In this document: positions 38,842-55,040 of the stretch, in pieces
How positions within the stretch are numbered: position 1 is the first letter of the stretch
Layout: every line of letters starts with the position of its first letter
Origin: Candidatus Bipolaricaulota bacterium
Lineage (GTDB): Bacteria; Bipolaricaulota; Bipolaricaulia; M55B111
NCBI GenBank assembly: GCA_021735245.1
Contig: JAIPHJ010000010.1
Coordinates: 1-61,253, forward strand
Direction of reading: 5' to 3'
DNA: 61,253 bases
Notes under the pieces: generated by a model
Seen by the model: the letters and a program-made list of their open reading frames with translations, nothing else
What the model was told of the DNA's origin: nothing
Databases searched by the model: none
Position numbers and translations under genes: made by a program

Positions 38842-38910
38842 AAGCATTGCGTGAAGGGGGTGATTAAATCAGGAGTAGAAGTAAGAAGTCGTAGGAACTA
38901 GTATAGGTGT

Positions 38911-38957
38911 GTCCGGAAGTACCTCTTTGTAAGGTCCGGACGGAACAGTATTATAAC
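38911..38957 (+). promoter_or_regulatory. Putative promoter/operator of the inositol operon
   Basis: GTCCGGA (38911-38917) and TCCGGAC (38935-38941) form an inverted repeat. A TTGTAA (38927-38932) and TATAAC (38952-38957) pair, 19 bases apart, overlaps it. The layout suits a repressor site on the promoter; spacing is long, so this is tentative. Confidence 0.3.
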
Positions 38958-38981
38958 CAAATATTATTTGTAGGGGGTTTT

Positions 38982-39980
38982 ATGATGAATAAAAAATTAA
39001 AATCCAGTTTACTTGTCGTACTTTTGATTGGTGTAGCCTTAGTAGGGAGTTTCGCAACCGTCCACAGTCAGGATGTTATAAAAGACCAATATCACATTAG
39101 AGTAGTAGTCCATGGTGGAATAGCTGACCCATTCTGGAAGGTGGTTGAAAAGGGTGTTAAGGAAGCAGCTGCAAATCACGATGATCTTAAAGTGACCTAT
39201 TCAGGACCTTCGAGCTACGACTTTACTGAATTTATATCAACGCTTGAGTCCTCAATTGCTGCCGACCCGGACGCTTTAGTCGTTACGTTGACTCAGCCGC
39301 CAGCCATGGACGACATTCTTCGACCCGCGATAAAGGATGGTTTACCGGTGATCGGGATAAATGCCCCGGACCTCAGGTCTCGTGACAAGCGTATACCGGT
39401 ATTGACCTACGTAGGTATGGATAGCCACTTTATTGGAGTTAAGGCGGCTCGGGAATCGATGAAGCGGATTGAAGGTCTCGAAAGAGGATTATACGTCAAC
39501 CATCATCCCGGTGCTCGGAATATTGAGGCCAGGGGGAATGGATGGGTAGAAACCCTCGAAGCTAATGGAGTAGAGGCAGGCACGTTAGATATTGGAGTGG
39601 AACCGGCTCAAGGAGCAGAACTTGTCGTTAACTACCTGACAAGGCACCCTGACACAGGTGTCATATTCAGCGGTAATACTCAGAGGACAGAAGCGATAAT
39701 AAAGAGGTTGGAAGACGAAGGGTATGACGTTGGAAAAGACATCAAAATCTGTCAGATGGACATTTCCCCTACTATTCTTGATTACATCCGAGACGGAAAG
39801 ATTATGTTCACCCTCGACCAGCAACAGTATATGCAGGGATATTTGGGTGTGGAACTTGCGTATCTAAACGCCAAACTCGGATTAGCCCCTCCACCTGCAC
39901 CTGTTTCTACTGGTCCGTCGGTCATTACGAAGGCAGACGTCTCGACCTTGGAAAAACTAGCAGACAAGGATTACAGATAA
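38982..39980 (+). CDS. CUT2-family sugar-binding protein, RbsB type
   Basis: 332-residue exported solute-binding protein (Peripla_BP_4). A Sec signal spans about residues 1-30 (LLVVLLIGVALVGSFATVHS). The mature protein begins YHIRVVVHGGIADPFWKVV, typical of ribose/inositol-type binders, and continues with SSIAADPDALVVTL and the hinge segments VIGINAPD and GVIFSGNTQ. Two ATGs in tandem (38982, 38985) follow a GGGGG site. The open frame starts 25 codons earlier without a ribosome site. Position at the head of an inositol catabolic operon suggests inositol or a related polyol as ligand. A true terminator follows at once. Confidence 0.87.
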   Translation: MMNKKLKSSLLVVLLIGVALVGSFATVHSQDVIKDQYHIRVVVHGGIADPFWKVVEKGVKEAAANHDDLKVTYSGPSSYDFTEFISTLESSIAADPDALVVTLTQPPAMDDILRPAIKDGLPVIGINAPDLRSRDKRIPVLTYVGMDSHFIGVKAARESMKRIEGLERGLYVNHHPGARNIEARGNGWVETLEANGVEAGTLDIGVEPAQGAELVVNYLTRHPDTGVIFSGNTQRTEAIIKRLEDEGYDVGKDIKICQMDISPTILDYIRDGKIMFTLDQQQYMQGYLGVELAYLNAKLGLAPPPAPVSTGPSVITKADVSTLEKLADKDYR

Positions 39981-39997
39981 CCTCGTTATCAAACTGA

Positions 39998-40036: not shown

Positions 40037-40092
40037 ATTTTCATCGCTCGACGTAGGCGAGTAGTAAAAATATACGGGAGAGTGGTCATATC

Positions 40093-41082
40093 TTGGAAGA
40101 TTCAGGAGAAGACGGCCTGACAAAGAGTTTGTTCAAACGTCTTCGCCGCCGCCCCGAGTTAGGTGCTGTAGTGGCTTTTGCCGTATTGTTTTTGATTTTT
40201 TCCGGGTTGAGTCCACGGTTTGCTACCCTCAATAACCTTAGCGGTGTCCTGACCCTGACAGCCGAGCTGGGTATTATGACGATCGGGATATCGTTCTTGA
40301 TGATTGCGGGGGAATTCGACCTCTCCGTTAGCAGTGTATATGCAATGGGTGGTTTTTTATACGTGATTTTGGTGAACGCTCTGGACTTCCCCCTGGGTGC
40401 AATAATTGCCTTCGTATTGGCAATCTCGTTTGGGGCGGTTATCGGATTCATAAATGGAATGATTACCCTGAGGGCGGGGATACCCTCTTTTATCACCACC
40501 CTTGGAATGTTGATGTTTCTCCGGGGCTTGCTGGTTGGGATAACCGGGGGGAGTTCGGTGGTAATTACCGAGGACTCGATAATTAACGAGGTGTTGACTG
40601 ATTACTTTTTCCTCAAATTTCGTCCTTCTCACCTCTGGTTTCTGGGGATTATCGTGTTGTTTACGATAATTTTGACCAAAACGACATATGGAAACCACGT
40701 TTTAGCTACGGGTGGAAATAAGAAAGTAGCCCGGACGATGGGAGTGAACGTGGAGTGGGTAAAAATAAAGAACTTTATGGCTTCAGGGATGCTGGCTGCT
40801 TTTGCGGGTACGATTGCAATAAATAGGTTCAGTCTGGCAAACGCTGCTTTCGGCCAACAAATGGAACTAGAAGCGATAGCTTCGGCAGTCATCGGTGGGA
40901 CGTTAATGACCGGCGGGTACGGGACTGTGATTGGAGCCGCCTTTGGAGCCTCGATAATGGGTATGGTCCGTTCCGGTTTAGTTCTGGTTGGCGCTCCGTC
41001 CTATTGGTACCAGGCTTTTGTAGGGGCAATTTTAATAATAGCCGCCACGATTAATCTAAAGCTAAGCGGGCTGAAGAGTTAA
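40093..41082 (+). CDS. CUT2-family sugar ABC permease, RbsC type
   Basis: 329-residue membrane permease with about eight to ten hydrophobic segments. It has the family strings ELGIMTIGISFLMIAGEFDLS near residue 55 (outline), FINGMITLRAGIPSFITTLG near 118-137 and GGTLMTGGYGTVIGAAFGA near 275. Arg-rich start RLRRRPELG. The start codon is TTG at 40093 with GGGAGAG upstream. It forms one importer with the binding protein at 38982 and the ATPase at 41093. Confidence 0.87.
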   Translation: MEDSGEDGLTKSLFKRLRRRPELGAVVAFAVLFLIFSGLSPRFATLNNLSGVLTLTAELGIMTIGISFLMIAGEFDLSVSSVYAMGGFLYVILVNALDFPLGAIIAFVLAISFGAVIGFINGMITLRAGIPSFITTLGMLMFLRGLLVGITGGSSVVITEDSIINEVLTDYFFLKFRPSHLWFLGIIVLFTIILTKTTYGNHVLATGGNKKVARTMGVNVEWVKIKNFMASGMLAAFAGTIAINRFSLANAAFGQQMELEAIASAVIGGTLMTGGYGTVIGAAFGASIMGMVRSGLVLVGAPSYWYQAFVGAILIIAATINLKLSGLKS

Positions 41083-41092
41083 GGGAGGAGAT

Positions 41093-41863
41093 ATGGCAAA
41101 TAACGGATCACAACCTCTGGTCGAGATGGAGGGTATCTGTAAAGATTTTGGTCCCGTGCACGCTCTTGAGGGTGTGGACATAGAGATTTCCGAAAATGAA
41201 GTTGTGGGGCTTTTGGGGGATAACGGAGCTGGAAAGTCGACTCTCATTAACATTATTTCAGGAGTTTTTCCCCCCACTAAAGGAGAATACCTCTTCCGAG
41301 GGGAGGAAGTTGATTTTTCTACACCCCGTGAAGCCCGAGAGAGGGGTATAGAGACAGTACACCAGGAATCCTCTCTGGTGGAAACAATGAGCATTGCCCG
41401 GAACTTTTTTCTCGGAAAAGAACCCACTACCGACTTTGGTCCTTTTTCCTTTTTGGATCATGGTGAGATGAATAAAGAGTCACGAAGGGTCATTTCCGAG
41501 ATAGGTGTAAAAATGAGATCTCCGGATGAATTCGTGAATATACTTTCTGGCGGAGAACGTCAAGCAATTGCAATCGGTCGGGCGATGTATTACGGAGCAG
41601 ACTTGTTAATTCTCGATGAACCTCTTCGAGCCCTTTCCATTCGAGAGCAACGCACGGTTCTTGACCACATTCGTGAGGCCCAGAGCCAGGGCGCTACAAT
41701 AATATTTATTACCCACAATGTGCACCACGTCTATCCAGTCGCGGGCAGGTTTATAATGCTGGATAATGGAAAGAAACTGGGAGCCCTTGAAAAAGAAGAC
41801 GTGGAAGATCCGGAGGACATTGCTGAGGTAATTGCACAGGGGAAAATGGAGGCGACAAGGTAG
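41093..41863 (+). CDS. Single-domain CUT2 ABC ATPase
   Basis: 256-residue ATPase. Walker A is GDNGAGKST near residue 43, the Q-loop is VHQESSLVETM, the signature is LSGGERQAIAIGRAM and the H-loop is ITHN. Walker B and D-loop read LLILDEPLRALSIRE, where CUT2 ATPases usually have LDEPTAALS. Most CUT2 ATPases are tandem duplicates of about 500 residues; this has one domain and resembles FrcA-type proteins, so it should work as a homodimer. ATG follows GGGAGGAG. It completes the importer at 38982-41863. Confidence 0.87.
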   Translation: MANNGSQPLVEMEGICKDFGPVHALEGVDIEISENEVVGLLGDNGAGKSTLINIISGVFPPTKGEYLFRGEEVDFSTPREARERGIETVHQESSLVETMSIARNFFLGKEPTTDFGPFSFLDHGEMNKESRRVISEIGVKMRSPDEFVNILSGGERQAIAIGRAMYYGADLLILDEPLRALSIREQRTVLDHIREAQSQGATIIFITHNVHHVYPVAGRFIMLDNGKKLGALEKEDVEDPEDIAEVIAQGKMEATR

Positions 41864-41902
41864 TATAAGACCTGTAGATGGAGTTAATGTATTTGGTTTT
41901 AG

Positions 41903-42046
41903 GCAATTGGCCGCGTAGAGTCTGCCAGGTCGTCATTTATCTTGATTGCTGGAAAGATGGTATTTGCTCCGAATATTCAGCCTGATGTGCTGGTAAAGGC
42001 CATTGAACCCTTAATGAAGACTTTCATTACGGCAAAAGTTAAGTAG
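41903..42046 (+). pseudogene. Possible gene remnant (47-codon C-terminal-like fragment)
   Basis: Between the ATPase and iolG a frame open from 41903 reads ESARSSFILIAGK, MVFAPNIQPDVLVKAIEPLM and KTFITAKVK, then stops at 42044-42046. The composition looks protein-like. No start codon with a ribosome site precedes it, so it may be the tail of a lost gene. I do not recognise the family. A 30-codon peptide from the internal ATG is the alternative. Confidence 0.25.
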
Positions 42047-42111
42047 GCTCTCAGTTCTATCCTTTGAAAAAGAAATGACTTCGATTTAAGTTGTTTATTC
42101 TCGGAGGAATA

Positions 42112-43128
42112 ATGAAAAATACAATAAACCTAGCGGTAATAGGAGTGGGAAGAATAGGGACTATCCACGCCAGGAACCTTGCTTTCAATATTCAGTCTGC
42201 TGAACTAAAGGCGATTTCCGACACTAGAAAAGATGCCCTGGAAGAGTGTGCCGCCAAATGTGGGGAACCAGATACGTATAAAGATTATCACGACGTTTTG
42301 TCCCGGTCGGATCTAGACGGAGTAGTGATCTGTACGTCGACTAACACACATGCTCAAATAATTAAAGACGCTGCGAAAGCCGGCAAGCACGTTTTTTGCG
42401 AAAAACCGATTGCGCTTGATCTTGACGAAATTGACGAAGCTCTGGAAGTCGTAGAGGAAGCGGGAATAAAGTTCCAGGTTGGTTTCTCCAGGAGATTCGA
42501 TCCGAGTTTCAGGCGAGCTCAGAAACGGGTTAGGGAGGGTGAAATTGGCCAGCCTAACGTCCTTAAGATAACCAGCAGGGATCCCGAACCCCCACCCATG
42601 GATTACGTAAAAGCCTCCGGGGGCTTATTTGTTGACATGACGATTCATGATTTTGACATGGCGCGGTTTATGATGCCCGGGAAAGTTAAAGAAGTCTATG
42701 CCCATGGATCCGTATTAATTGATGAAGATATTGGAGAAGTTGGGGATATAGATACTGCAGGAGTTCTGATAAAATTTGAGGACGGAGCAATAGGCCTTAT
42801 CGATAATTCCAGGAAGGCTTCTTATGGGTACGATCAGAGGTTGGAAGTGTTGGGGTCGGGGGGAAAGATAGAAGTTTCAAATCCAAGGGAAACCCAAATC
42901 GAGGTATCCGATGTCGAGGGAGCCAGGCAAGATCCGGTCCTACACTTTTTCACCGAAAGGTATCGAGAAGCTTACGAAAATGAGATGGAAGCCTATACGG
43001 AATTTATAAGAAGCGGCGAGAATTCACCTGCTTCTGGTGAAGATGGCCGTATGGCGGTGGTGTTAGCCGATGCAGCGGAAATGTCAAGAAAGGAAAACAG
43101 ACCGGTTGAACTAGACGAGATAGATTAG
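42112..43128 (+). CDS. iolG: Inositol 2-dehydrogenase (Gfo/Idh/MocA family)
   Basis: 338-residue NAD(P)-dependent dehydrogenase, expected to oxidise myo-inositol to scyllo-inosose, the entry step of the pathway. The Rossmann motif is VIGVGRIG at residues 8-15. EKPIALDLDE carries the catalytic Lys, and SGGLFVDMTIHDFDMARF carries the Asp/His pair typical of IolG. ATG at 42112 follows GGAGGAATA; the frame opens seven codons earlier. Its neighbours iolM, iolN and iolO reproduce the Thermotoga maritima inositol set, which strengthens the substrate call. Confidence 0.85.
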   Translation: MKNTINLAVIGVGRIGTIHARNLAFNIQSAELKAISDTRKDALEECAAKCGEPDTYKDYHDVLSRSDLDGVVICTSTNTHAQIIKDAAKAGKHVFCEKPIALDLDEIDEALEVVEEAGIKFQVGFSRRFDPSFRRAQKRVREGEIGQPNVLKITSRDPEPPPMDYVKASGGLFVDMTIHDFDMARFMMPGKVKEVYAHGSVLIDEDIGEVGDIDTAGVLIKFEDGAIGLIDNSRKASYGYDQRLEVLGSGGKIEVSNPRETQIEVSDVEGARQDPVLHFFTERYREAYENEMEAYTEFIRSGENSPASGEDGRMAVVLADAAEMSRKENRPVELDEID

Positions 43129-43178
43129 TTTTTGTTCGTCTCATTCACTTATAATTACAGTTAATTTAAGGAGGTCTT

Positions 43179-44339
43179 ATGAAAGCATTAGTTGTTGATG
43201 CGGACTGGGAGCCGCGAGAAGATTACGAACTCAGTGAATTTGAAAAAGAAACGGGTAAGGTAATCGAAGGTAACAACGTATGGCGTAACCCCGACATGGA
43301 GGTCCGGGACGTCGAAAAACCGACCCCCGGCGAAGGCGAAGTTCTGTTAAAAGTAAAGGCCTGCGGGGTATGCGGATCGGATATTCACTTTTACGAGACT
43401 GACGAGGACGGTTACATGCTCTATCCCGGCCTCACTAAGTTTCCAATCGCTATTGGGCACGAATTTGCCGGGGAGATAGTTGAAGTAGGGAGTGGGCCGG
43501 AGACGGAAGAATTTGAAGTTGGTGACAGAGTAACGACCGAAGAAATGGTCTGGTGTGGCCACTGTAGAGCCTGCCGAGACGGGTTACCCAACCACTGTGA
43601 AAACCTGGAAGAACTGGGCATAACAATAGACGGAGCAATGGCTGAATACATTGCCGTTCCCGCAAAGCTTTGCTGGGACGTGGATGCAATATTTGATCGC
43701 TACGACGATGAAGAGATGGCATGGGACGTGGCGGCTACCACTGAACCTACGAGCGTGGCTTACAATTCGATCTTCGAACGGGGCGAAGGTTTCCGTCCGG
43801 GATCCTACGTCGTGGTTTACGGGGCCGGTCCCATTGGCCTAGCCGCAATTCAGCTTGCTAAGTCGTCCGGTGCTTCTAAAGTAATTGCTTTTGAGATATC
43901 ACCGGAAAGGCTCGAACTGGCAGGTGAAGTTGGGGCGGATCACGCTTTCGATCCCAGAGAAGTCGACCCTACGGAAGTAGTAATGGATATCACCAACGGT
44001 GAAGGCGCCGATTTTCAGCTCGAGGCAGCCGGTGCTCCGGCTCAGACGATTCCCGAGATGGAATCTTCCGTGGCAATAAACGGAAAGATGTCTCAAGTGG
44101 GAAGGGCCGCCCAGCGAGTTCCGATGTATCTCGAGACTTTTCAGGTACGGAGAGCCCAGATATACGGAGCCCAGGGGCATTCAGGACACGGAATCTTCCC
44201 TTCAGTTATACGCATGATTGGTGCTGGATTGGTCGACAACTCGCGGATCGTAACAAGCAAGTTTGACCTCGAAGATGGCGTGGAAGCGGTCAAGCAAGCG
44301 TCGAAACGCGAAGACGGTAAAGTAATAATTAATCCTTGA
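43179..44339 (+). CDS. iolM: Zinc alcohol dehydrogenase, scyllo-inosose 3-dehydrogenase-like
   Basis: 386-residue medium-chain dehydrogenase. Catalytic zinc ligands lie in KACGVCGSDIHFYE and GHEFAGEIVEVG. The structural zinc lobe CGHCRACRDGLPNHC has four Cys. The NAD site is VYGAGPIGLAAIQLA near residue 213. In T. maritima the IolM enzyme oxidises scyllo-inosose to a diketo-inositol, and the same gene order is seen here. An extended N-terminus (about 45 residues before the GroES-like core) and acidic surface are notable. ATG follows AAGGAGG. Sorbitol or other polyol dehydrogenase is the alternative reading without context. Confidence 0.78.
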   Translation: MKALVVDADWEPREDYELSEFEKETGKVIEGNNVWRNPDMEVRDVEKPTPGEGEVLLKVKACGVCGSDIHFYETDEDGYMLYPGLTKFPIAIGHEFAGEIVEVGSGPETEEFEVGDRVTTEEMVWCGHCRACRDGLPNHCENLEELGITIDGAMAEYIAVPAKLCWDVDAIFDRYDDEEMAWDVAATTEPTSVAYNSIFERGEGFRPGSYVVVYGAGPIGLAAIQLAKSSGASKVIAFEISPERLELAGEVGADHAFDPREVDPTEVVMDITNGEGADFQLEAAGAPAQTIPEMESSVAINGKMSQVGRAAQRVPMYLETFQVRRAQIYGAQGHSGHGIFPSVIRMIGAGLVDNSRIVTSKFDLEDGVEAVKQASKREDGKVIINP

Positions 44340-44366
44340 AGTTTTCAACCCATTAAAGGAGGGAAT

Positions 44367-45470
44367 ATGTCTGAAGACCTTTGGATAACGACTGAGGACC
44401 CCGGTATTGTTTTCGAAGACACGGAAGTTGGTAGGCTGAAGAAGGAACTGTGGGACGCATCGATGGATGAAATAGACGGGATTCTTGACGAATACGGAGT
44501 ACCGTCCGAGCCCGAACTGGGGAAGGCGGGAAGCTATATCCAGACTACGCCACGCTCTGAGCTGGTCGAGAAAAGAAGAAAGAACGATATAGTTATCATT
44601 CCCGTAGGTTGTACCGAAAACCACGGGATGGCAAACGTAAGTGGCCTGGACAGCTTTATGGTGACTCAGATTGCCGAGGCACTTAGGAGATATACGGCAA
44701 AACAGGGACATCCGGTAAACCTTGCATTTAATCCACTCAATTACGGAGGCCATCCGTACCACCACCTCGGTATGCCTGGCACGGTAGTTATGCCTCAGGA
44801 AGTAGTGAGAGAAAATCTTATTTACGTTATGCTGGGCTTGTGGAACGACGGATTCAGGAAACAGATTATTATAAACAATCACGGACAGCTCTGGATGCTT
44901 GAATCCGCGCTTCACGAGTTTATGGAAAGGTATCACTTACCGGGTATATTCCAGGTAATGGACTGGCACAGAGCCGTAAGGGAGTTCTTCTTCCCCAGAG
45001 AGGGAGAAGGGGGTTTTGAGACCAACTTTGTCCATGCGGCAGAAGCGGAGACCTCCGTAGCACAGTTAATGTTCCCGGACGGAATGGTCGACATGGATTC
45101 AGCCCAGGACTCCGAAGGGGAAAGCTTCCTACCGGAAGGACACTTTGATAAATCCGTAGATCCCTATCGTCGACCCCATCGCTGGTCGGAAGGGGAGGGT
45201 CACTCCGCAATAGAGCTCGAAGGTACTCCGGAGGGTGCCGTTGGTAAGCCTACTCTGGCATCTCCTGAAAAGGCAAAGAGACCGATAGCGGCAATCCTTA
45301 AGTACCTGACGCTGGTAACCGACCAGATTATAGAGGAGTTCCCGCCCGGGGAAGTTCCACCCGTGGAAAAGATCACCCTGCGTGACGCGGACGAAATGGA
45401 GCCGTACCTGAAGGAACCGCAGAGTGAGGGCTGGAAGTCGGTTTACGAACTTCCGAGAATTGGTTTTTAG
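44367..45470 (+). CDS. iolN: Creatininase-fold diketo-inositol hydrolase-like protein
   Basis: 367-residue protein of the creatininase superfamily. IIPVGCTENHGMANVSGLDS near residue 75 and NNHGQLWMLESALHEF near 172 contain the metal-binding Glu, His and Asp residues of the fold. By position between iolM and iolO, and by analogy with T. maritima IolN, it should open the ring of the diketo-inositol to 5-keto-L-gluconate. The length, greater than simple creatininases (about 250), fits IolN. ATG follows AAAGGAGGG. A GC-rich hairpin lies 17 bases after the stop. Confidence 0.75.
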   Translation: MSEDLWITTEDPGIVFEDTEVGRLKKELWDASMDEIDGILDEYGVPSEPELGKAGSYIQTTPRSELVEKRRKNDIVIIPVGCTENHGMANVSGLDSFMVTQIAEALRRYTAKQGHPVNLAFNPLNYGGHPYHHLGMPGTVVMPQEVVRENLIYVMLGLWNDGFRKQIIINNHGQLWMLESALHEFMERYHLPGIFQVMDWHRAVREFFFPREGEGGFETNFVHAAEAETSVAQLMFPDGMVDMDSAQDSEGESFLPEGHFDKSVDPYRRPHRWSEGEGHSAIELEGTPEGAVGKPTLASPEKAKRPIAAILKYLTLVTDQIIEEFPPGEVPPVEKITLRDADEMEPYLKEPQSEGWKSVYELPRIGF

Positions 45471-45486
45471 AAAGAAAAACGAAATT

Positions 45487-45527
45487 CCCTGCCCCCGGAG
45501 GTAACTCAGGGGGCAGGGTCACTTTTT
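45487..45527 (+). terminator. Intra-operon hairpin between iolN and iolO
   Basis: CCCTGCCCCC (45487-45496) pairs perfectly with GGGGGCAGGG (45509-45518), followed by ACTTTTTC. It is terminator-like, so genes from iolO onward may be made at a lower level or under attenuation. Confidence 0.65.
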
Positions 45528-45537
45528 CGGGAGGACT

Positions 45538-46320
45538 ATGAAAAAAAGCGTAGTATTACCGGTACAGGACGAACACGGTTTATGTCCCTTTGAACCGGGT
45601 CAGCTGGATAAAGATCTAAAGTTAATATCCGAATTCGGGTACGATGGTGTAGAGCTTGGAATTACCGATCCGAATTCGGTTTCTGTAAGGAAAATAACCG
45701 AAAAATTAAGGGATAACGAACTAAAATTATCGGCACTTACTACAGGGCAGGCCTACGGGGTGGAAGGGATATCGATTACTGAGAGGGATCCCGGAAAGAG
45801 AAAAATGGCCAGGGATAGACTAAAGAGCCATATAGATTTTGCCGCCGATTTCGAAGATGTGCCCGTAATAATAGGCTCTTTACGAGGCGATGGAAAATCC
45901 AACCCACCACGGAGATGGCTGACACAGAACCTGTCGGACATTGCTCAATACGCTGAAAGCCAGAAGGTCAATATCGCTTTTGAACCATTGAACAGGTACG
46001 AATCTTCTTTGGTGAACACGGTAAAAGAGGCACTGGACGTAATTGAGGAAGTAGGTTCTCCGAGGATGGGAGTTCTGTTTGACACTTTTCATGCCAATAT
46101 CGAGGAGTCGTCCATTGCCGAAAGTATCGAGGTTGCGTCTAAGAAGTTAATATACGTCCATCTTGCCGATAGCAATCGCTGGGCACCCGGTTATGGCCAT
46201 ATAGATTTTTCAAAAGTGTTTTCGACACTGGATAATGCAGGATACGAAGGCTTTTGCTCACTAGAATCTCTTCCCAGGCCTGACAAAGAAGTATGTTTGG
46301 AAGCACCATTTGAAATCTAG
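45538..46320 (+). CDS. iolO: TIM-barrel sugar epimerase, 5-keto-L-gluconate epimerase-like
   Basis: 260-residue xylose-isomerase-like TIM barrel. Metal ligands are seen in IAFEPLNRYES (Glu), VLFDTFHANIEE (Asp/His), YVHLADSNRWAPGYGHIDF (His) and CSLESL (Glu), the pattern of tagatose/psicose-3-epimerase relatives. In the Thermotoga inositol route IolO converts 5-keto-L-gluconate to D-tagaturonate, and UxaE, which uses tagaturonate, follows directly here. ATG follows GGGAGGA right after the hairpin. Confidence 0.78.
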   Translation: MKKSVVLPVQDEHGLCPFEPGQLDKDLKLISEFGYDGVELGITDPNSVSVRKITEKLRDNELKLSALTTGQAYGVEGISITERDPGKRKMARDRLKSHIDFAADFEDVPVIIGSLRGDGKSNPPRRWLTQNLSDIAQYAESQKVNIAFEPLNRYESSLVNTVKEALDVIEEVGSPRMGVLFDTFHANIEESSIAESIEVASKKLIYVHLADSNRWAPGYGHIDFSKVFSTLDNAGYEGFCSLESLPRPDKEVCLEAPFEI

Positions 46321-46359
46321 CTTATATTGGTTTTTCGAATAGAGATAGAAGTTTAATCA

Positions 46360-47850
46360 GTGGGTGAAATTTTGAAAAAGGCAAAAAGAATCGAGAAACG
46401 ACTACCGGAGAACTACAGTATATACCGGAATTCTATCACCGGGACGGATAATACTACCTATGCTTTAGTAAGGAATTCAGGAACAGAAAAAAGACTTTAC
46501 GTTAGCGGGAGTGGTGCTCAAAGTTTCGAAGGCGAAGCAAAATCTGAAAATATAAAACTTTGTCCGCTGACCTGGGAGAATGCTCAGCAGTTGATGGACG
46601 TATTTGATTGGCTCGTTCCATCCTTTCCCTCGTCCAAACCTTCTTTTGGTTTCGGTGATCGGACCGGCCTGGCTACTCCCGGCCATAAAAGATCTCTGGG
46701 TGAACACGATGTATTTCCGATCTTTGCCCAGCAGTCGATAAGAGAAATGGAGAGGACTGGCCGAACTCCTCAGGACGTGATGAACACGGCCGTCTGGGGG
46801 GTATTTGAGGAGGGCTACCGGGAAGGATTTGCCGCGGACGCGGATCACCTGAAAACCAGGGAGTCCATAGAAGAAACTGCGGCTGTAGGCTTTAACATGT
46901 TTACCTGTGATCCGAGCGAGCACGTTACCCCCGAGGCTGATTCGATGTCGGAGGTTGAACTTGAAGAGGCGCTCCGGAAGATGGAAAGGGGTAAGGAGTT
47001 ACTGGAAAAATATTCTGGCAGGAAATTTACGGCCAGTTTACCTGGTCACGGTTACGAATTTGAGAGAATTTTCCGGTCTAATGAAGTAAAAAAGGCCATC
47101 GTTAAGTATTTTCCCGCGGTTAAATTTGCCGTGGATTCATTTGACTGGGTTTCCGAAGCTAGAAAAGGGGAGTTCATATTCGAGGTTTCGGTCGATGAAA
47201 CGGAGACGCCGACGACTCCACTTGAGCACGTATTTGTTGCCAAAGAGTTGACCGAAAGAGGTGTGGATTTGTTTAGCCTGGCCCCGAGATTCGTGGGGGA
47301 TATCGAGAAAGGGATTGATTATATAGGTGATCTCGATCGATTTGAAGAGCAACTAAAGGCCCACGCTGCGATAGCCAGATCATTTGGGGACTACAGGCTT
47401 TCCCTGCACTCTGGTTCGGATAAATTCAGTATTTATCCCTATTTTGCGGAATACCTCGGAGAGAAAGTTCACGTTAAAACAGCAGGGACAAGTTACCTGG
47501 AAGCGATACGTCTGGTGGCTGAAAAGGACCCTGATCTCTTCCGGCGGATTCACGAATTCGCCCTCGAGCGGTTTGACGAGGACAGGGCCACTTACCACGT
47601 GGAGACGGACCTTTCGGAGGTTCCCGGTCCGGGCGAACTTTCCGACGAAAAATTGCCGGACCTGTTCGACCGGGATGATCCGCGCCAGGTCTTTCACGTG
47701 ACTTATGGCTCCGTACTTAATCACCGGAAAGGTACCGAGTACGTATTCAGGGATGAAATTAAAAATCTTCTTAAAGAGTACGAGGAGAGACATTACAGGT
47801 TACTGGAGTCGCACCTTGGACATCACTTGGATTTGTTGACTCAGGGGTGA
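46360..47850 (+). CDS. uxaE: Tagaturonate/fructuronate epimerase
   Basis: 496-residue protein matching the UxaE family (formerly a conserved hypothetical), which interconverts D-tagaturonate and D-fructuronate. The motif FGFGDRTGLATPGHKRSLGE near residue 97 is characteristic, as are ADADHLKTRESIEE and LHSGSDKFSIYP. The start codon is GTG at 46360; TTG at 46372, preceded by GGGTGA, is equally plausible. No transmembrane or signal segments. Its presence shows that the pathway passes through ketouronates. The stop lies five bases before the chosen start of the SDR gene. Confidence 0.85.
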   Translation: MGEILKKAKRIEKRLPENYSIYRNSITGTDNTTYALVRNSGTEKRLYVSGSGAQSFEGEAKSENIKLCPLTWENAQQLMDVFDWLVPSFPSSKPSFGFGDRTGLATPGHKRSLGEHDVFPIFAQQSIREMERTGRTPQDVMNTAVWGVFEEGYREGFAADADHLKTRESIEETAAVGFNMFTCDPSEHVTPEADSMSEVELEEALRKMERGKELLEKYSGRKFTASLPGHGYEFERIFRSNEVKKAIVKYFPAVKFAVDSFDWVSEARKGEFIFEVSVDETETPTTPLEHVFVAKELTERGVDLFSLAPRFVGDIEKGIDYIGDLDRFEEQLKAHAAIARSFGDYRLSLHSGSDKFSIYPYFAEYLGEKVHVKTAGTSYLEAIRLVAEKDPDLFRRIHEFALERFDEDRATYHVETDLSEVPGPGELSDEKLPDLFDRDDPRQVFHVTYGSVLNHRKGTEYVFRDEIKNLLKEYEERHYRLLESHLGHHLDLLTQG

Positions 47851-47855
47851 AGGTA

Positions 47856-48680
47856 GTGGAGATCGTTGATAATTTCGATTTGAGCGGTAAAGTAGTCGTT
47901 TTAACGGGTGGAGCCGGGGTGCTCTGCTCAGAGATGGCGCGGGCACTGGTTGACGCAGGAGCTAAAGTCGCAATACTGGACGTGGACGAGGAAAGTATGG
48001 CCCAGCTGGAGGAAGAGGCTGAAAGTGACGGGTCGAATTTGGTGACTATCGAAACGAACGTCCTGGATAAGAAGAGTCTGGAGAGCGCCGCCGACAAAAT
48101 TAAGGACAGGTGGGGCCGAATAGACGTCTTGATCAACGGAGCCGGCGGAAACAGCCCGAAGGCGACGACTGGTGAGGACCAGAGCTTCTTCGACTTGCCC
48201 GAGGAAGGAGTCCAGCAGGTCTTTAACCTCAACTTTCTCGGTACTTTTCTGGCTTCGCAGGTATTTGGCGAGGTATTCGTTGAGCAGGGAGAAGGCATCA
48301 TACTCAATATATCATCCATGAATGCCTTTACCCCGCTCACCAAGATACCGGCGTATTCGGCAGCGAAGGCTGCAGTGAGTAACTTCACTCAGTGGCTCGC
48401 CGTACACATGTCTCAGAATTACTCCCCGGACATCAGAGTTAACGCCATAGCTCCGGGATTCCTGCTGACCGAACAGAATAGGTACCTACTGATAGACGAG
48501 GAAACGGGGGACCTGACCGAGCGAGGCCAGACAATAATCGACCACACGCCTATGGGCGAGTTTGGTGATCCCGAGGACCTGCTGACGACGGTTTTCTGGC
48601 TGCTCGAAGATGGTTCAAAATTCGTTCACGGGACAGTTATCCCGATAGACGGAGGATTTTCCGCTTTCAGCGGTGTCTAG
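47856..48680 (+). CDS. SDR-family reductase, probable fructuronate reductase
   Basis: 274-residue short-chain dehydrogenase. The cofactor loop is TGGAGVLCSEMA near residue 15, LDVDEE follows beta-2 and INGAGGN replaces NNAG. The catalytic set is Ser in NISSMNAF with YSAAKAAV (Tyr and Lys). In T. maritima an SDR in the UxaE cluster reduces fructuronate to D-mannonate, the best guess here. GTG at 47856 is preferred because GGGGTGA lies upstream; an earlier GTG at 47847 would overlap uxaE by four bases. Reduction of another keto-acid of the pathway is possible. Confidence 0.75.
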   Translation: MEIVDNFDLSGKVVVLTGGAGVLCSEMARALVDAGAKVAILDVDEESMAQLEEEAESDGSNLVTIETNVLDKKSLESAADKIKDRWGRIDVLINGAGGNSPKATTGEDQSFFDLPEEGVQQVFNLNFLGTFLASQVFGEVFVEQGEGIILNISSMNAFTPLTKIPAYSAAKAAVSNFTQWLAVHMSQNYSPDIRVNAIAPGFLLTEQNRYLLIDEETGDLTERGQTIIDHTPMGEFGDPEDLLTTVFWLLEDGSKFVHGTVIPIDGGFSAFSGV

Positions 48681-48689
48681 GAGGTAAAT

Positions 48690-50105
48690 ATGTCCTCAGA
48701 GGAATCGGAGTTTGGAATCATTGGCATGGCGGTTATGGGCCAGAACCTCGCCCTGAATATCGAGCAAAGCGGCTATCGAGTATCCGTTTACAACCGAACT
48801 GACTCAAAGACGAAGGATTTCAAGCAAAAGCGAGCCAGTGACAGGGATATAGTCGCTACCTATGAACTGGAAGAGTTTATCTCCTCCCTTGAGCGGCCAC
48901 GGAAGGTACTCATTCTCGTCAAAGCCGGGAAACCGGTGGACATGGTGATAGATCAATTACTTCCGCTAATGGAAGAAGGAGATATTATAATCGACGGGGG
49001 CAATTCACACTTTCAGGATACAAACCGCAGGGTCAAAAAAGTAGAAGGAGAGGGTTTGCATTATCTGGGCACCGGAATAAGTGGCGGCGAGTACGGTGCT
49101 TTACACGGCCCCTCGATCATGCCCGGCGGTCATCGCGAAGCTTACGACGAGGTCTCGGAGATATTGCGATCGGCGGCGGCCCAGACCCCCGAAGGACCTA
49201 CGTGTAAGTACCTCGGTCCCCGATCAGCCGGACATTACGTTAAAATGGTGCACAACGGTATAGAGTACGCCGTGATGCAGTCGATAGCCGAGGTCTACTG
49301 GGCTATGAAAAACTTGCTGGATCTAAGTCACGAGGATATGGCGGACCGGTTTGAAGCCTGGAATCAGCGACTTGACGCCTATTTAATGGAAATTACGGTG
49401 GAAATTCTCCGGGAAGAGGACGAAAAGACAGGGCGGCCTCTTCTCGAAGTTATTCTCGATACAGCAAAACAGAAAGGCACCGGCAAGTGGACTTCTCAGA
49501 GTGCTCTTGATCTTGGAGTCCCGGTTCCGACAATCACAGCCGCCGTTGACGCTCGTCTCCTTTCCGCTCGAAAGGATCAGCGAGGTCGTCTGGACGAGTT
49601 GTACGGTGAACTCGGTAATTATGAAACTTACGAAGGTTTCGAAGATGATCTGGGAAAAGCCCTGTACTTGTCCATAGTTACTGCCTATGCCCAGGGACTA
49701 GATCTACTTGAAGAAGCCTCGGAAGAATATAATTACGGCCTTGACATCCAGGATGTGGCCCAGATATGGAAGGACGGCTGTATAATCCGGTCCGACCTGC
49801 TGGATCCGATCTCCGAAAGTTACTCCAGCGAGGGTCTCGACACCCTTCTGGCTTCCGAGGAGTTCCAGGACGATTATCGAGAAGCTATACCCTCACTTCG
49901 CAAGGTGGTCTCGGCTCTGTCAAAAACGGATTTGATCTGTCTGGCCCTTAGTGCCAGCTTGAACTACTTCAATTCTCTGACCGCAGAAAGGCTGCCCGCA
50001 AACATGATCCAAGCTCAGAGGGATTACTTTGGGGCTCACACTTACCAAAGGGTGGACGAAGAAGGGACGTTCCATACCGAGTGGCAGGACATAAAAAACG
50101 TCTAA
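48690..50105 (+). CDS. gnd: 6-phosphogluconate dehydrogenase, decarboxylating
   Basis: 471-residue enzyme that converts 6-phosphogluconate to ribulose 5-phosphate and CO2. The cofactor loop is GMAVMGQNLALN near residue 12. YNRTDSK after beta-2 suggests NADP preference. GTGISGGEYGALHGPSIMPGG near 130-150 and VKMVHNGIEYAVMQSIAE near 190 carry the catalytic residues. The C-terminal YFGAHTYQRVDEEGTFHTEW is complete. ATG follows AGGAGG. Within the inositol/uronate operon it supplies the pentose-phosphate exit, and the kinase two genes on would make its substrate. Confidence 0.95.
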   Translation: MSSEESEFGIIGMAVMGQNLALNIEQSGYRVSVYNRTDSKTKDFKQKRASDRDIVATYELEEFISSLERPRKVLILVKAGKPVDMVIDQLLPLMEEGDIIIDGGNSHFQDTNRRVKKVEGEGLHYLGTGISGGEYGALHGPSIMPGGHREAYDEVSEILRSAAAQTPEGPTCKYLGPRSAGHYVKMVHNGIEYAVMQSIAEVYWAMKNLLDLSHEDMADRFEAWNQRLDAYLMEITVEILREEDEKTGRPLLEVILDTAKQKGTGKWTSQSALDLGVPVPTITAAVDARLLSARKDQRGRLDELYGELGNYETYEGFEDDLGKALYLSIVTAYAQGLDLLEEASEEYNYGLDIQDVAQIWKDGCIIRSDLLDPISESYSSEGLDTLLASEEFQDDYREAIPSLRKVVSALSKTDLICLALSASLNYFNSLTAERLPANMIQAQRDYFGAHTYQRVDEEGTFHTEWQDIKNV

Positions 50106-50111
50106 ATTGAG

Positions 50112-51155
50112 GTGAAGGAAATTAATTCGGTAAACGAATATCCAGAGCGGACGGCTATCGTAAATTCCAGTACTTTCGGTCGGAACTTCGAGGATCTGAT
50201 GGAGCGACTGCGATCGCTCGGCCCAGTGGAAAGTTTCCAGTTTGATCCAGACGTGAACGGGAAGAAGTTGGCCAGGAAACTGGCAGGTTACAAGTACGTA
50301 ATAGCGAGCGTTACCCCGAACTTCCTGGAAGAGTTTTTCGAGGAAAACAGTGATATCAAGCTGATTGCAAGGCACGGAATAGGTTGCGACAACGTGGACC
50401 TGGAAGCGGCGACGACGGCAGGAGTTATAGTTACACGGGTAGGGCACCAGTCCGAGAGGGACGCCGTGGCCGAACTCACACTTTCCTTGATTATGACCTG
50501 TATCCGGAACGTTATTCCGGCCAACCAGGCAGTAAAAGAAAACCAATGGGAACGAAGAAAGGAATTTGTAGGCAAGGAACTGTCGGGAATGAAAGTTGGA
50601 ATTATTGGCTACGGAAACATCGGCAGCAGAGTGGGGGAGATAATTAAGGAAGGGTTTAGGGCTGAGGTTTCCGCTTACGATCCGAACATAGCTGACGCTG
50701 TAATCGAGAAGACCGGAGTGAAGCCGGCGGGGTTTGAAGAGGTTCTGGGTAACTCCGATCTCTTAAGCTTCAACGCCTCGTTGAACAAAGAGAACTACCA
50801 CTTCGTCGGGGAAGAAGAATTCGGTCTTATGAAGGACGGCGTGATAATTGTGAATACCGCCCGAGGGGAACTGATAGATAAGTCCGCCTTCCTTAGTGCC
50901 CTTGAATCCGGCAAAGTAAGGTGTGCCGGGGTGGACGTGCTGGAGGAAGAACCACCGAGTTCCAGGAACCAGCTGAGGCGAGAGGATAACCTCTACATCC
51001 TGCCGCACGTCGGGAGTTATACGGAAAAGTCCCTAAGGGCGATGGACGAGAAGATGGTTGAAGACGTCGAAAAACTGGTTGAAGGAGAAGTACCTGAAGA
51101 AGTTGTAAACCCTAAGGTTCTCAGAGAGGGCAATCGTGCCGGGGTTAGCAAATGA
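50112..51155 (+). CDS. D-isomer-specific 2-hydroxyacid dehydrogenase
   Basis: 347-residue NAD(P)-dependent 2-hydroxyacid dehydrogenase of the SerA/GhrB superfamily. RHGIGCDNVDLEAATTAGV near residue 90, the nucleotide loop GIIGYGNIGSRVGE near 162, the catalytic Arg in NTARGELID, Glu in DVLEEEPP and His in LPHVGSYTE are intact. No C-terminal ACT domain, so a serine-pathway role is unlikely. Between gnd and the gluconokinase-like gene it may act as a 2-ketoaldonate reductase, for example to set the C2 configuration between mannonate and gluconate (inference). The start codon is GTG. It overlaps the kinase by four bases. Confidence 0.85.
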   Translation: MKEINSVNEYPERTAIVNSSTFGRNFEDLMERLRSLGPVESFQFDPDVNGKKLARKLAGYKYVIASVTPNFLEEFFEENSDIKLIARHGIGCDNVDLEAATTAGVIVTRVGHQSERDAVAELTLSLIMTCIRNVIPANQAVKENQWERRKEFVGKELSGMKVGIIGYGNIGSRVGEIIKEGFRAEVSAYDPNIADAVIEKTGVKPAGFEEVLGNSDLLSFNASLNKENYHFVGEEEFGLMKDGVIIVNTARGELIDKSAFLSALESGKVRCAGVDVLEEEPPSSRNQLRREDNLYILPHVGSYTEKSLRAMDEKMVEDVEKLVEGEVPEEVVNPKVLREGNRAGVSK

Positions 51156-52654
51156 GTTTGGCGCTAGTTGTTGACGTGGGTACTACCAATATAAAGGCGG
51201 GTCTGGTCGATCCGGAAGGTCGGGTGCTCTCCCAGGCGAGCAGGAGTCTGGAAGTTCACAGGCCGGAAAAGGGAGCGGCCGAACACGACCCGGATGAGAT
51301 CCTAGAGTCCTTTAATGAGATAGTTAGAAAAACCGTTAAAGGGAACCGCGAAGAAGTCAAAGTCCTGGGTCTGACCGGTTACCAGTTCGGGTTTCTCCCG
51401 CTGGACGAAGGCGGTGAACCACTGACCGGGGTAATGACCCTGATGGACGAGCGACCCAAGTCCGTCATGGGGGAATTCCAGAGCAGGGACGACCTCGCCG
51501 AGATTTACAATCGTACCGGCTGTCCTCCGCTGTTTGCATATCAGTTACCCAAGCTTCTCTGGCTTAAAGAGGAAAAACCGGAAATCTTCGGGAAGAGCAG
51601 ATACTTTGCCGATGTTAAGAGCTTTTTGCTAAAAAAGCTGGTTGATGATTTCGTGACCGATCCCGGAATTGCATCTTCCAGTCAGATTCTCAACATAAAT
51701 GACCTCACGTGGGACGATCAGTTGATGGAACTGGCTGGTGTTGGCAGGGATCAACTTCCCAGAGTGGGTCGCGGTGAAGAAATTCTGGGAACGCTTCGGT
51801 CCGGACTGGCGGAAGAGTTGGGACTAAAGAGTGACTTAGAAGTCGTACTCGGCGTATATGATGGAGGAGCGATGGTTTTGGGGTTGGGCGGAGTGGACGG
51901 GCAAGGTGGAGTCTGTAACCTGGGTACTACCGCTATGATTCGAACCTGCTCCGAAGAGCCGGTGCTGGACGACCCGGAGAAACGGCGGCTTCAGACTTAT
52001 GCCCTATTACCTGGTAAATGGGCGATAGGTGGGGCAATAAACAATGCGGGAGTTGGTCTTCGCTGGTTTAGGGATAACTTTCAACCTTCCGGAAACTATT
52101 CCAGTATAATTGCTGATGCCGCTAGAGTGGAGCCGGGCTCAGGAGGAGTATTTAGCCTTCCCTACTTTACTGGTGAACGGGACCCGAGAATCGGAAACAT
52201 GGCAACTGGGTCGTTCTTTGGTTTAAAAGATTATCATGAAAAAGCACATATGGCGAGGGCTATCCTGGAGGGTGTCGCCTATAGTCTAAATTTCGTCAGA
52301 GAAGCAATGATGGACAACAGTATTGAGTATAATCGAATAAGTATAGGAGGTTCCGGAGCTCGCTCGGACCTCTGGCCCCAGATTATTGCGGACGTGACAG
52401 AACTTCCCGTGCGGAAAACCCTGACGGAAGATACGACCTTGATAGGAGGAGCTATGATTGGTTATAAAGCTATGGGTCTTTACGATAGTTTGGAACAGGC
52501 CAGCGAGAAAATGGTAAAAACCGGGAAAGAATTTTCCCCGATTAGCAAGAACGTGAAGCGCTATGAGGGAGGGTACGAATTTTTCAAAGAGCTGGTAAGG
52601 GAGTTCAGTAAACTTTATCCTATGCACGACGAGAAGTTTTCGCCGGGAAGTTGA
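51152..52654 (+). CDS. gntK: FGGY-family carbohydrate kinase, gluconokinase-like
   Basis: 500-residue sugar kinase. The N-terminal ATPase phosphate loop is VVDVGTTNIKAGLVD, followed by TGYQFGFLPLD and LMDERPKS. The second domain has GVYDGGAMVLG, NLGTTAMIRT and the adenine-binding IGGSGARSDLWPQIIADV near residue 400. Next to gnd the natural reaction is gluconate to 6-phosphogluconate, as for the gluconate kinase linked to uxaE and gnd in T. maritima. Xylulose or another sugar acid cannot be excluded. ATG overlaps the previous stop as ATGA. Confidence 0.78.
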   Translation: MSLALVVDVGTTNIKAGLVDPEGRVLSQASRSLEVHRPEKGAAEHDPDEILESFNEIVRKTVKGNREEVKVLGLTGYQFGFLPLDEGGEPLTGVMTLMDERPKSVMGEFQSRDDLAEIYNRTGCPPLFAYQLPKLLWLKEEKPEIFGKSRYFADVKSFLLKKLVDDFVTDPGIASSSQILNINDLTWDDQLMELAGVGRDQLPRVGRGEEILGTLRSGLAEELGLKSDLEVVLGVYDGGAMVLGLGGVDGQGGVCNLGTTAMIRTCSEEPVLDDPEKRRLQTYALLPGKWAIGGAINNAGVGLRWFRDNFQPSGNYSSIIADAARVEPGSGGVFSLPYFTGERDPRIGNMATGSFFGLKDYHEKAHMARAILEGVAYSLNFVREAMMDNSIEYNRISIGGSGARSDLWPQIIADVTELPVRKTLTEDTTLIGGAMIGYKAMGLYDSLEQASEKMVKTGKEFSPISKNVKRYEGGYEFFKELVREFSKLYPMHDEKFSPGS

Positions 52655-52687
52655 TCGTATTGCTTTTTTGGATTGAAGGAGGTTATA

Positions 52688-53641
52688 TTGTCGAAACTAG
52701 TTGAGATCAGAGATGAGAAAGTAAAGATAAGAGACGCCTATGGGGAAGTTCTTCCGGAGCTGGGCAAGGAAGACGAAGATATAGTTGTTTTGACCGCCGA
52801 CCTGGCCGGGTCCACGCGAACCAAGTACTTCGGCCATGAGTTCCCCGATCGATTTTTCAACGTTGGGATTACTGAGGCAAACATGATGGGTATGGCTGCG
52901 GGTCTGGCCATGGAGGGTAAGAAGCCTTTTACCAGTACGTTCGCGGTATTTGCCACAGGAAAACCGTGGGAACAGGTCAGACAGACGATCGCCTATCAGT
53001 CGGCTCCGGTTCGAATAGTGGCGACTCACTCCGGAATCACCGTGGGGGAAGACGGGGCGTCCCACCAGATAATCGAGGACGTTTCCAACATGAGAGTCCT
53101 GCCCAACATGAAAGTTGTTGTACCGGCGGACGCCACTCAGACAAAAGAAGTGATCAAGACCGTCGGTGGCGAAATGGACGGTCCCGTCTACGTAAGACTG
53201 GCCCGGGCAGCTTTCCCCGTGATTTACGAGGAGTGCGACTTCGAACTGGGTAAAGCCGAGGTTCTGCGGGAGGGTAGCGACGTGTCTATCTTCGCCATGG
53301 GGTTGATGGTGGCCAATTCCCTGGACGCGGCGGAGATCCTGGAAGATAAAGGTATATCTGCTGAGGTAATAAACGTCTCTACGATCAAACCCCTCGACTC
53401 CGAAACGGTTGTTAATTCAGTCGCGAAAACGGGTGCCGCCGTAACGGCCGAGGAACATAACGTAATCGGCGGGCTGGGATCGGCGATTTCGGAGGTAGTA
53501 AGCGAGAACGAGCCGGTACCAATCAAGAGAATCGGAATTCAGGATCGGTTTGGCGAATCCGGCCCCGCCTACGAACTGGTGGAGCACTTCGGGCTTACCG
53601 CTAAAGATATTGTCAGTAAGACTGTTAGTCTTTTAAGTTAA
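52688..53641 (+). CDS. Transketolase, C-terminal subunit
   Basis: 317-residue half-size transketolase containing the pyrimidine-binding and C-terminal domains. VVLTADLAGSTRTKYF, FFNVGITEANMMGMAAGLA (with the cofactor-activating Glu), FAVFATGKPWEQVRQ, THSGITVGEDGASHQ and PADATQTKEV are clear. It needs the N-terminal subunit at 54210 to form an enzyme that moves two-carbon units between sugar phosphates. TTG at 52688 is chosen because AAGGAGG lies five bases upstream. The C-half precedes the N-half, opposite to the linear order of fused transketolase. Confidence 0.88.
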   Translation: MSKLVEIRDEKVKIRDAYGEVLPELGKEDEDIVVLTADLAGSTRTKYFGHEFPDRFFNVGITEANMMGMAAGLAMEGKKPFTSTFAVFATGKPWEQVRQTIAYQSAPVRIVATHSGITVGEDGASHQIIEDVSNMRVLPNMKVVVPADATQTKEVIKTVGGEMDGPVYVRLARAAFPVIYEECDFELGKAEVLREGSDVSIFAMGLMVANSLDAAEILEDKGISAEVINVSTIKPLDSETVVNSVAKTGAAVTAEEHNVIGGLGSAISEVVSENEPVPIKRIGIQDRFGESGPAYELVEHFGLTAKDIVSKTVSLLS

Positions 53642-53656
53642 TACTATTGTTTTTGT

Positions 53657-54116
53657 TTGGTCAGGAGCGAGGTGTTTCTGATCTTAGCTTTTGGTAACTG
53701 TTCGATAAAACCGCAGGCGATTTCCCCGGCGTGGAAATCGCTGCTTCCGATCTCGGCCTCGCTCTCCACCCTTTCTTCATTGTACTGTCACAAAGAAAGG
53801 GCACCGAACCGAGAAAATTCCAGCGACGCGGCGCATATGTTTGACCGAGCCAGGAATTACCTGATGCTTGCATCAGGTAATTCCTGGAGAGGGATATTAC
53901 CATAACGGAATGAGGTTAAATGTTTATGTGTAATGCTTACTATCAATAAGAAGCACTCTCGGGAAGGCACCAGTTTGAGCACGCGAGTCGGAAATTTCTC
54001 GGTTCGGGAAGCCCGGAGGTCAAAAGGAGGACCAACGAAAGGGTGGAACCGTGCCCGCTCGGCCTCCGATAGGATTTTCCTGAACAGTAACCAAAAGCTA
54101 TATTTACTATGACCAA
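53657..54116. repeat. 460-bp nested inverted-repeat (foldback) structure between transketolase halves
   Basis: Several nested pairs share one centre: TTGGTCA (53657-53663) with 54110-54116; AGCTTTTGGTAACTGTTC (53686-53703) with 54082-54099, one mismatch; CCGAACCGAGAAA (53804-53816) with 53995-54007; and a central perfect 18-bp palindrome at 53850-53887. Local hairpins lie at 53717-53741 (9 bp) and 53769-53801 (9 bp). Reading frames here are low-complexity shadows of the repeats with no known protein. It fills most of the 568-base gap. It may be a foldback mobile element without transposase or a structured RNA. Confidence 0.65.
53850..53887. repeat. Perfect 38-bp palindrome at the centre of the foldback
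   Basis: CCAGGAATTACCTGATGC, a TT spacer, and its exact complement. Both strands can form an 18-bp stem with a two-base turn. Confidence 0.9.
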
Positions 54117-54209
54117 TAAGAGGAAGTTTTCTGGGGTTATTAATTATCAAGTTGAGTCCCTTAATTAAGCGGGGGGGACAGTTTTGAATGATTTAAATCG
54201 GGAGGAAAC

Positions 54210-55040
54210 ATGGAAATAAATGAGTTAAAAGAAAAAGCGAATCAACTGCGAGCTGACGTGTTGAAGACGGTAACTAATGCCGACTCGGGTCATCCCGGTG
54301 GTGCACTGGGAATGGCCGATACCTGGACGGTCCTTCATTACGAGTTCCTGAACGACAAGCCCGAGGATCCCGGCTGGGAGGGGAGGGACAGGTTTATCCT
54401 CTCGAACGGACATACCTGCCCCCTGCTTTACGCGGTGCTGGCCGATAAGGGCTACTTCCCGAAGGAAGAACTTGATAACTTCCGAAAGCTCGGTGCTTTG
54501 CTTCAGGGCCACCCGTCTACGGCCAAAGGAACTCCCGGTGTTGAGTTTTCCTCCGGCTCCCTCGGTCACGGGCTTTCGTTTGGATCAGGGGTCACCCTGG
54601 CAGGTCGTCTGAACGGTCAGGACTACAGAACATACGTGTCAATTTCGGACGCCGAATGTCAGGAAGGCCAGACGTGGGAAGCTGCTGCTGTGGCGAGAGA
54701 CAAGGAGCTGGGTAATTTATGTGCGCTGCTGGACTACAACGATAGCCAGATTGACGGGAAAGTCAGCGATATCATGGACGTGGCTCCACTGGTTGAGAAG
54801 TGGGAGAGTTTTGGCTGGAGGGTCATAGAGATCGACGGCCACGACTACGGGCAAATAGAGAACGCTTACGAGAATTTTCGCGACAATAGTTCCAGGAGAG
54901 GTAAGCCCACGGTAATTGTGTCTCATAATACCCTGGGTAAGGGAGTGTCCTTCATGGAAGACGATCCAGCGTGGCACCACGGAGCGCTTTCTTCGGACCA
55001 AATGGTACAGGCACTGAAAGAGCTGGGAGTAGGGAGTTAG
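54210..55040 (+). CDS. Transketolase, N-terminal subunit
   Basis: 276-residue thiamine-diphosphate-binding half of transketolase. TNADSGHPGGALGMADTW, FILSNGHTCPLLYAVLA and SSGSLGHGLSFGSG are conserved substrate and cofactor contacts. The thiamine-diphosphate motif reads SDAECQEGQTWEA to DYNDSQIDG, where most have GDG; the metal-binding Asp and Asn are kept. ATG follows GGGAGGAAAC. It pairs with the C-half at 52688 across the foldback region. A terminator hairpin ends the operon. Confidence 0.88.
   Translation: MEINELKEKANQLRADVLKTVTNADSGHPGGALGMADTWTVLHYEFLNDKPEDPGWEGRDRFILSNGHTCPLLYAVLADKGYFPKEELDNFRKLGALLQGHPSTAKGTPGVEFSSGSLGHGLSFGSGVTLAGRLNGQDYRTYVSISDAECQEGQTWEAAAVARDKELGNLCALLDYNDSQIDGKVSDIMDVAPLVEKWESFGWRVIEIDGHDYGQIENAYENFRDNSSRRGKPTVIVSHNTLGKGVSFMEDDPAWHHGALSSDQMVQALKELGVGS

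Follow-up and report, generated by a model that had tools for sequence, protein, structure and literature searches.

A stretch of 61,253 nucleotides from a Candidatus Bipolaricaulota bacterium (contig JAIPHJ010000010.1 of assembly GCA_021735245.1), here called the window, carries a gene cluster predicted to join inositol oxidation to the pentose-phosphate pathway. Eleven genes, from iolG to the gene for the N-terminal half of a transketolase, all lie on the + strand, and family models bear out the order in which a preliminary description had listed them (Table 1). From iolG through the gene for the C-terminal half of the transketolase, which precedes the N-terminal half, the intergenic gaps are −4 to 68 bp. 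The preliminary description let the operon begin at iolG, and this extent proved too short. Positions 38194-41863 hold, in the same orientation as iolG, a GntR/FCD-type regulator gene and a three-gene sugar ABC importer (sugar-binding protein, RbsC-type permease and ATPase), and the unit therefore probably covers 38194-55040, with its own regulator and importer. The source genome is a 1.95-Mb assembly of 83 contigs that is 85% complete, which bounds the absences from this genome given below.

Table 1. Genes of the inositol cluster in the window, with the family models that support each assignment. SDR, short-chain dehydrogenase/reductase.
Feature	Position	Strand	Family model
GntR/FCD transcriptional regulator, first gene of cluster	38194..38841	+	PF00392, PF07729
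ABC importer, sugar-binding protein	38907..39980	+	PF13407
ABC importer, RbsC-type permease	40093..41082	+	PF02653
ABC importer, ATPase	41093..41863	+	PF00005
IolG, inositol 2-dehydrogenase	42091..43128	+	TIGR04380, 450 bits (cut-off 355); ATG start likely 42112
IolM, scyllo-inosose 3-dehydrogenase	43179..44339	+	NF041097, 552 bits (cut-off 450)
IolN, 3-dehydro-scyllo-inosose hydrolase	44367..45470	+	NF041098, 312 bits (cut-off 245)
IolO, 5-keto-L-gluconate epimerase (to D-tagaturonate)	45538..46320	+	NF041099, 266 bits (cut-off 300); PF01261
UxaE, tagaturonate to fructuronate epimerase	46360..47850	+	PF16257, 557 bits
SDR-type fructuronate reductase (D-mannonate oxidoreductase)	47847..48680	+	NF006132, 381 bits (cut-off 281)
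Gnd, 6-phosphogluconate dehydrogenase (decarboxylating)	48690..50105	+	NF006765, 635 bits (cut-off 413)
D-isomer-type 2-hydroxyacid dehydrogenase (2HADH), proposed C2-inverting enzyme on 6-phosphomannonate/6-phosphogluconate	50112..51155	+	PF02826/PF00389
FGGY kinase, proposed D-mannonate (or gluconate) 6-kinase	51152..52654	+	PF00370/PF02782
Transketolase, C-terminal half	52673..53641	+	PF02779, PF02780
Transketolase, N-terminal half	54210..55040	+	PF00456

Like the inositol pathway of Thermotoga maritima (IolG, IolM, IolN, IolO; TM0411-TM0416), the cluster encodes four enzymes that would act in the same order to give D-tagaturonate. IolG, IolM and IolN each exceed the curated cut-off of the T. 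maritima-type model, and for IolO that model is by far the best, with a score below its equivalog cut-off. In T. maritima the inositol genes lie apart from uxaE, gnd and gntK, whereas in the window they form one operon in which the genes for UxaE, a fructuronate reductase and Gnd are all present and linked. The reductase is a short-chain dehydrogenase/reductase (SDR) that scores above the D-mannonate oxidoreductase cut-off, and it was therefore assigned the reduction of fructuronate to D-mannonate. The FGGY kinase reached 303 bits with the gluconokinase model TIGR01314, far under the cut-off of 648.55, and its nearest PDB entry is the gluconate kinase 3GBT.

In T. maritima, gnd-uxaE-uxaD-gntE-gntK links galacturonate degradation with the pentose-phosphate pathway (PMC3750489, PMC7583248). 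GntE, a nickel-pincer D-gluconate/mannonate 2-epimerase, acts there on D-mannonate (PMC7583248). The window cluster would use the same exit as this UxaR-regulated gene set, from tagaturonate through fructuronate and mannonate to 6-phosphogluconate and ribulose 5-phosphate. However, the T. maritima cluster has GntE, whereas in the window genome GntE was undetected, a 2HADH gene stands beside the kinase gene and a split transketolase is added. The outline from inositol to ribulose 5-phosphate had been drawn in the preliminary description and is supported, but it left out one step. D-mannonate and D-gluconate are C2 epimers. Reduction of fructuronate gives D-mannonate, whose phosphorylation gives 6-phosphomannonate and not 6-phosphogluconate, so the outline as drawn lacks an inversion at C2.

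Neither GntE nor the usual end of the route was found by tblastn in the window: UxuA and a 2-keto-3-deoxy-6-phosphogluconate (KDPG)-type aldolase gave no match, as had been claimed, and no search was aimed at 2-keto-3-deoxygluconate (KDG) kinase. In the genome as a whole there was no match to the LarA family (PF09861), to a GntE homologue from the related locus L038 used as query, or to UxuA, ManD-type enolases, Edd/IlvD and UxaA. A co-regulated uxuA, kdgK or kdgA elsewhere had been named as evidence that would count against the pentose-phosphate exit, and this applies in part: UxuA is without a match, and a KDPG-type aldolase is present on another contig, C63. There (L144, 7630-12859) an FGGY kinase, a 2HADH 55% identical to that of the cluster, an SDR, the aldolase and another 2HADH adjoin an ABC importer, and the vicinity lacks a dehydratase; the same-genus relative G003 has a similar set (L143). 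The aldolase would suit an exit through KDG encoded elsewhere (mannonate or altronate dehydratase, KdgK and KdgA), with gnd and the kinase serving external gluconate. We consider such an exit very improbable, as UxuA, ManD-type enolase, UxaA and Edd were searched for in the genome without a match and none is encoded in the operon.

The joining of two gene sets had been described as distinctive, and in this the preliminary description did not hold. We compared IolN loci from relatives and 80 more from named genomes, and the same fusion occurs in other Bipolaricaulota, Atribacterota and Chloroflexota loci; it is no peculiarity of the window genome. Bipolaricaulota loci such as L037, L038, L040 and L042 have iolG-M-N-O-uxaE-SDR-X-X-gnd-X in a row, and the last gene encodes a LarA-family protein. 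The PDB chain nearest to this protein is 4NAR, a deposit named as putative uronate isomerase that we take to be T. maritima TM0442 (GntE). Genes uxaE and gntE also lie with or beside the iol genes in Atribacterota (L101) and Chloroflexota (L132, L133), and split transketolase genes adjoin the iol loci L096, L099 and others. Among the 80 named-genome loci, UxaE is found at 20, Gnd at 10, a GntE-type protein at 10 and UxuA at none. The fused iol-uxaE-SDR-gnd-gntE operons (L037, L038, L040, L101, L133) are like the window in their upstream inositol genes and in having the exit in a single cluster, and the SDRs of GntE-type and 2HADH-type operons are 62-64% identical. In place of GntE, however, the window operon has a 2HADH gene, whose end is overlapped by the start of the FGGY kinase gene. 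The fusion is common and the exit is known; what stands out is that GntE is absent and that a 2HADH adjoins the kinase.

A further difference concerns the kinase. At L037 (6327-7625), L038 (10156-11436) and their relatives no FGGY kinase was seen, and where a sugar-acid kinase is expected there is a protein near pyrophosphate (PPi)-dependent phosphofructokinases (3K2Q, 3HNO) beside a HAD-like protein, whereas the window has an FGGY kinase. This protein may be a PPi-dependent sugar-acid kinase.

The 2HADH of the window has both family domains, and Arg251, Glu280 and His299, which from knowledge of the family we presume to be the catalytic positions, are invariant in 13 members of its clade. The N18-S19-S20 loop is likewise invariant, and it and R87 are candidates for binding the phosphate. 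Its AlphaFold model (pLDDT 86) matches the 2HADH fold, which supports the fold only. Within the genus, its relatives are in G002 (78% identity), in G003 (55%) and on contig C63. Outside the class, relatives were found in one genome, G177 (51%), and in Caldanaerobacter (50%), whose order we take to be Thermoanaerobacterales. A profile search at E below 1e-85 recovered the clade in 7 of 399 genomes of the phylum of Caldanaerobacter and in 15 of 24 of its order. Leuconostoc citreum and Enterococcus faecium have members as well, on plasmids. In a tree, 24 copies are monophyletic and separate from other 2HADHs of the same loci.

In the sister species G002 (L142) a regulator 48% identical to that of the window heads a galacturonate-type cluster, regulator-importer-uxaC-uxaE-SDR-gnd-2HADH-kinase-tktC-tktN, in which a front end for hexuronates is attached to the exit seen in the window. 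The order in Thermoanaerobacterales is uxaE-2HADH-kinase-gnd-uxuB, with uxaC present in some, and in Caldanaerobacter the cassette adjoins iolM-N-G-O. The order is uxaE-2HADH-kinase-gnd-SDR in G177, and the Leuconostoc citreum plasmid has a symporter, UxaE, UxaC, UxuB, 2HADH and FGGY kinase in a row, plus gnd. Over the 24 loci, a kinase of the FGGY family adjoins at 21, gnd is present at 20, UxaE at 14 and UxuA at one; a GntE or LarA-type gene was found at none. UxuB, present at 16, comes in two unrelated forms (SDR at 5, mannitol-dehydrogenase type at 11), which leaves 2HADH, kinase and gnd as the constant core. The SDR was ruled out as a constant partner of the 2HADH, since other cassettes have the unrelated UxuB in its place. 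All three loci that lack a kinase carry genes of a mannose-family phosphotransferase system (PTS). A PTS would deliver a phosphorylated substrate, and these copies suggest that the 2HADH acts on a phosphorylated acid. The copy on the E. faecium plasmid (L148, NZ_CP072711, 29976-2482 across the origin) is in an apparent operon of gnd, 2HADH, alcohol dehydrogenase, mannose-family PTS, uxuA and HAD phosphatase, an arrangement that suggests a sugar acid imported as its phosphate.

These distributions bear on the classic route, in which a LarA-family epimerase encoded in the unassembled part of the genome would make gluconate for a true gluconokinase. The incompleteness of the assembly and the use of GntE by related operons speak for it. 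GntE was, however, searched for elsewhere in the window genome without success; it was not found in the G002 genome (70% complete), which has the same cassette, and no clear GntE was found in any of the 15 clade-bearing Thermoanaerobacterales genomes, 8 of which also lack UxuA. With the lack of a LarA-type gene at the cassette loci, this makes the classic route improbable.

By elimination, the kinase and the 2HADH of the cassette are candidates for the phosphorylation and the C2 inversion. We somewhat favor reading the window cluster as an inositol-utilization operon with a complete pentose-phosphate exit, in which the 2HADH would stand in for GntE. From the gene content, the linkage, the absences and the clade we infer the following order of substrates and mechanism. 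According to the family models, IolG, IolM, IolN and IolO would convert inositol to D-tagaturonate, UxaE would convert this to D-fructuronate and the SDR would reduce it to D-mannonate. The FGGY kinase would then make 6-phosphomannonate, and the 2HADH would invert C2. The simplest mechanism would be NAD-linked oxidation to 2-keto-6-phosphogluconate and re-reduction to 6-phosphogluconate. Gnd would decarboxylate the latter to ribulose 5-phosphate, which transketolase would carry onward.

A matching pair of activities has been described in Lactobacillus suebicus grown on galacturonate, where cell extracts convert mannonate and ATP to 6-phosphomannonate and then to 6-phosphogluconate, with the genes not assigned (PMC6978723). 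Our literature search for 6-phosphomannonate turned up this paper alone. Like the window, the L. suebicus route has UxaE, fructuronate reductase, a gluconokinase-like kinase and Gnd, and no mannonate dehydratase (PMC6978723), and on the L. citreum plasmid this gene set is accompanied by a 2HADH of the window type. The L. suebicus route starts from galacturonate, ends in phosphoketolase and is known from activities in extracts, whereas that of the window is predicted from its genes, starts from inositol and leads to transketolase. More tentatively, and with rather less than even confidence, we propose that the clade is a new type of sugar-acid epimerase, NAD-dependent and nickel-free, which converts 6-phosphomannonate to 6-phosphogluconate at C2. 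It would replace GntE in Bipolaricaulota, in Thermoanaerobacterales and in lactic acid bacteria, and its gene would be a candidate for the L. suebicus activity that still lacks one.

Several points weigh against the 2HADH as a stand-in for GntE. In L. suebicus a GntE-like protein is expressed as well, and the authors of that study put it forward as an epimerase candidate (PMC6978723). GntE and the dehydratases went undetected in a genome of only 85% completeness, and the 24 loci perhaps amount to five independent lineages, most of the loci being from one order. The SDR-2HADH-kinase sets of C63 and G003 have an aldolase in place of gnd, and the role of the 2HADH may be broader or different. To our knowledge, D-2-hydroxyacid dehydrogenases normally act on one C2 configuration, and an epimerase would therefore have to be unusually relaxed in its stereospecificity or work with a second enzyme; we know of no strict epimerase activity in the 2HADH family.

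One rival is a two-step redox inversion, in which one dehydrogenase, perhaps the SDR, would oxidize mannonate at C2 and the 2HADH would reduce 2-ketogluconate to gluconate before phosphorylation. That reduction is known in the superfamily, and L143 and L144 have SDR, 2HADH and kinase as neighbors. But the mannitol-dehydrogenase-type UxuB of Thermoanaerobacterales and Leuconostoc takes the place of the SDR, leaving no constant second dehydrogenase, and the PTS-linked copies imply phosphorylated substrates; we give this scheme little chance. The main rival, which we consider unlikely, takes the 2HADH for an ordinary 2-keto-6-phosphogluconate (or 2-ketogluconate) reductase by which the same kinase and gnd could use 2-ketogluconate as well. 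Mannonate would then pass through an unlinked epimerase, or Gnd would take 6-phosphomannonate directly; decarboxylation by Gnd erases the C2 configuration. The chemistry of the family fits such a reductase, the nearest solved structures are glyoxylate/2-ketogluconate reductases, and the PTS-linked copies would suit import of 2-ketogluconate. A role in 2-ketogluconate use leaves unexplained, however, why UxaE, UxaC and UxuB are repeatedly found together with the clade, as on the Leuconostoc plasmid and in the galacturonate-type operon of L142.

For uronates or inositol to enter the pentose-phosphate pathway, anaerobes that lack mannonate dehydratase must invert C2 of mannonate. One nickel enzyme is known to do so; a second activity, which acts on the phosphorylated acid, was shown in 2020, but no genes were assigned to it. 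The 2HADH-kinase-gnd cassette offers a cloneable candidate pair for that activity, with culturable relatives in Thermoanaerobacterales and Leuconostoc. If epimerization by the 2HADH is true, the route would be redox-neutral and useful for pectin fermentation, and a large dehydrogenase family would be shown able to work as an epimerase.

The 568-bp gap ahead of the gene for the transketolase N-terminal half contains an inverted-repeat element of about 416 bp (53685-54100) with 19-bp terminal inverted repeats, AGCTTTTGGTAACTGTTC ... GAACAGTAACCAAAAGCT. The G002 copy (L142, 14948-15324) is 84% identical over 383 bp and lies between the same two flanking genes in the opposite orientation; the element is invertible or re-inserted. 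No known RNA element from Rfam was matched in the operon or in this gap, and scans for promoters and terminators were no richer than shuffles. A strong terminator-like stem-loop with a T tail (39996-40031) lies between the genes for the sugar-binding protein and the permease, a placement often met with when binding protein is produced in surplus. At 273-4932, genes for a phosphofructokinase, a TreT-like trehalose synthase and a family 20 glycosyltransferase (OtsA type) are clustered. This group, along with the acidic appearance of the proteins, hints at a salt-adapted host.

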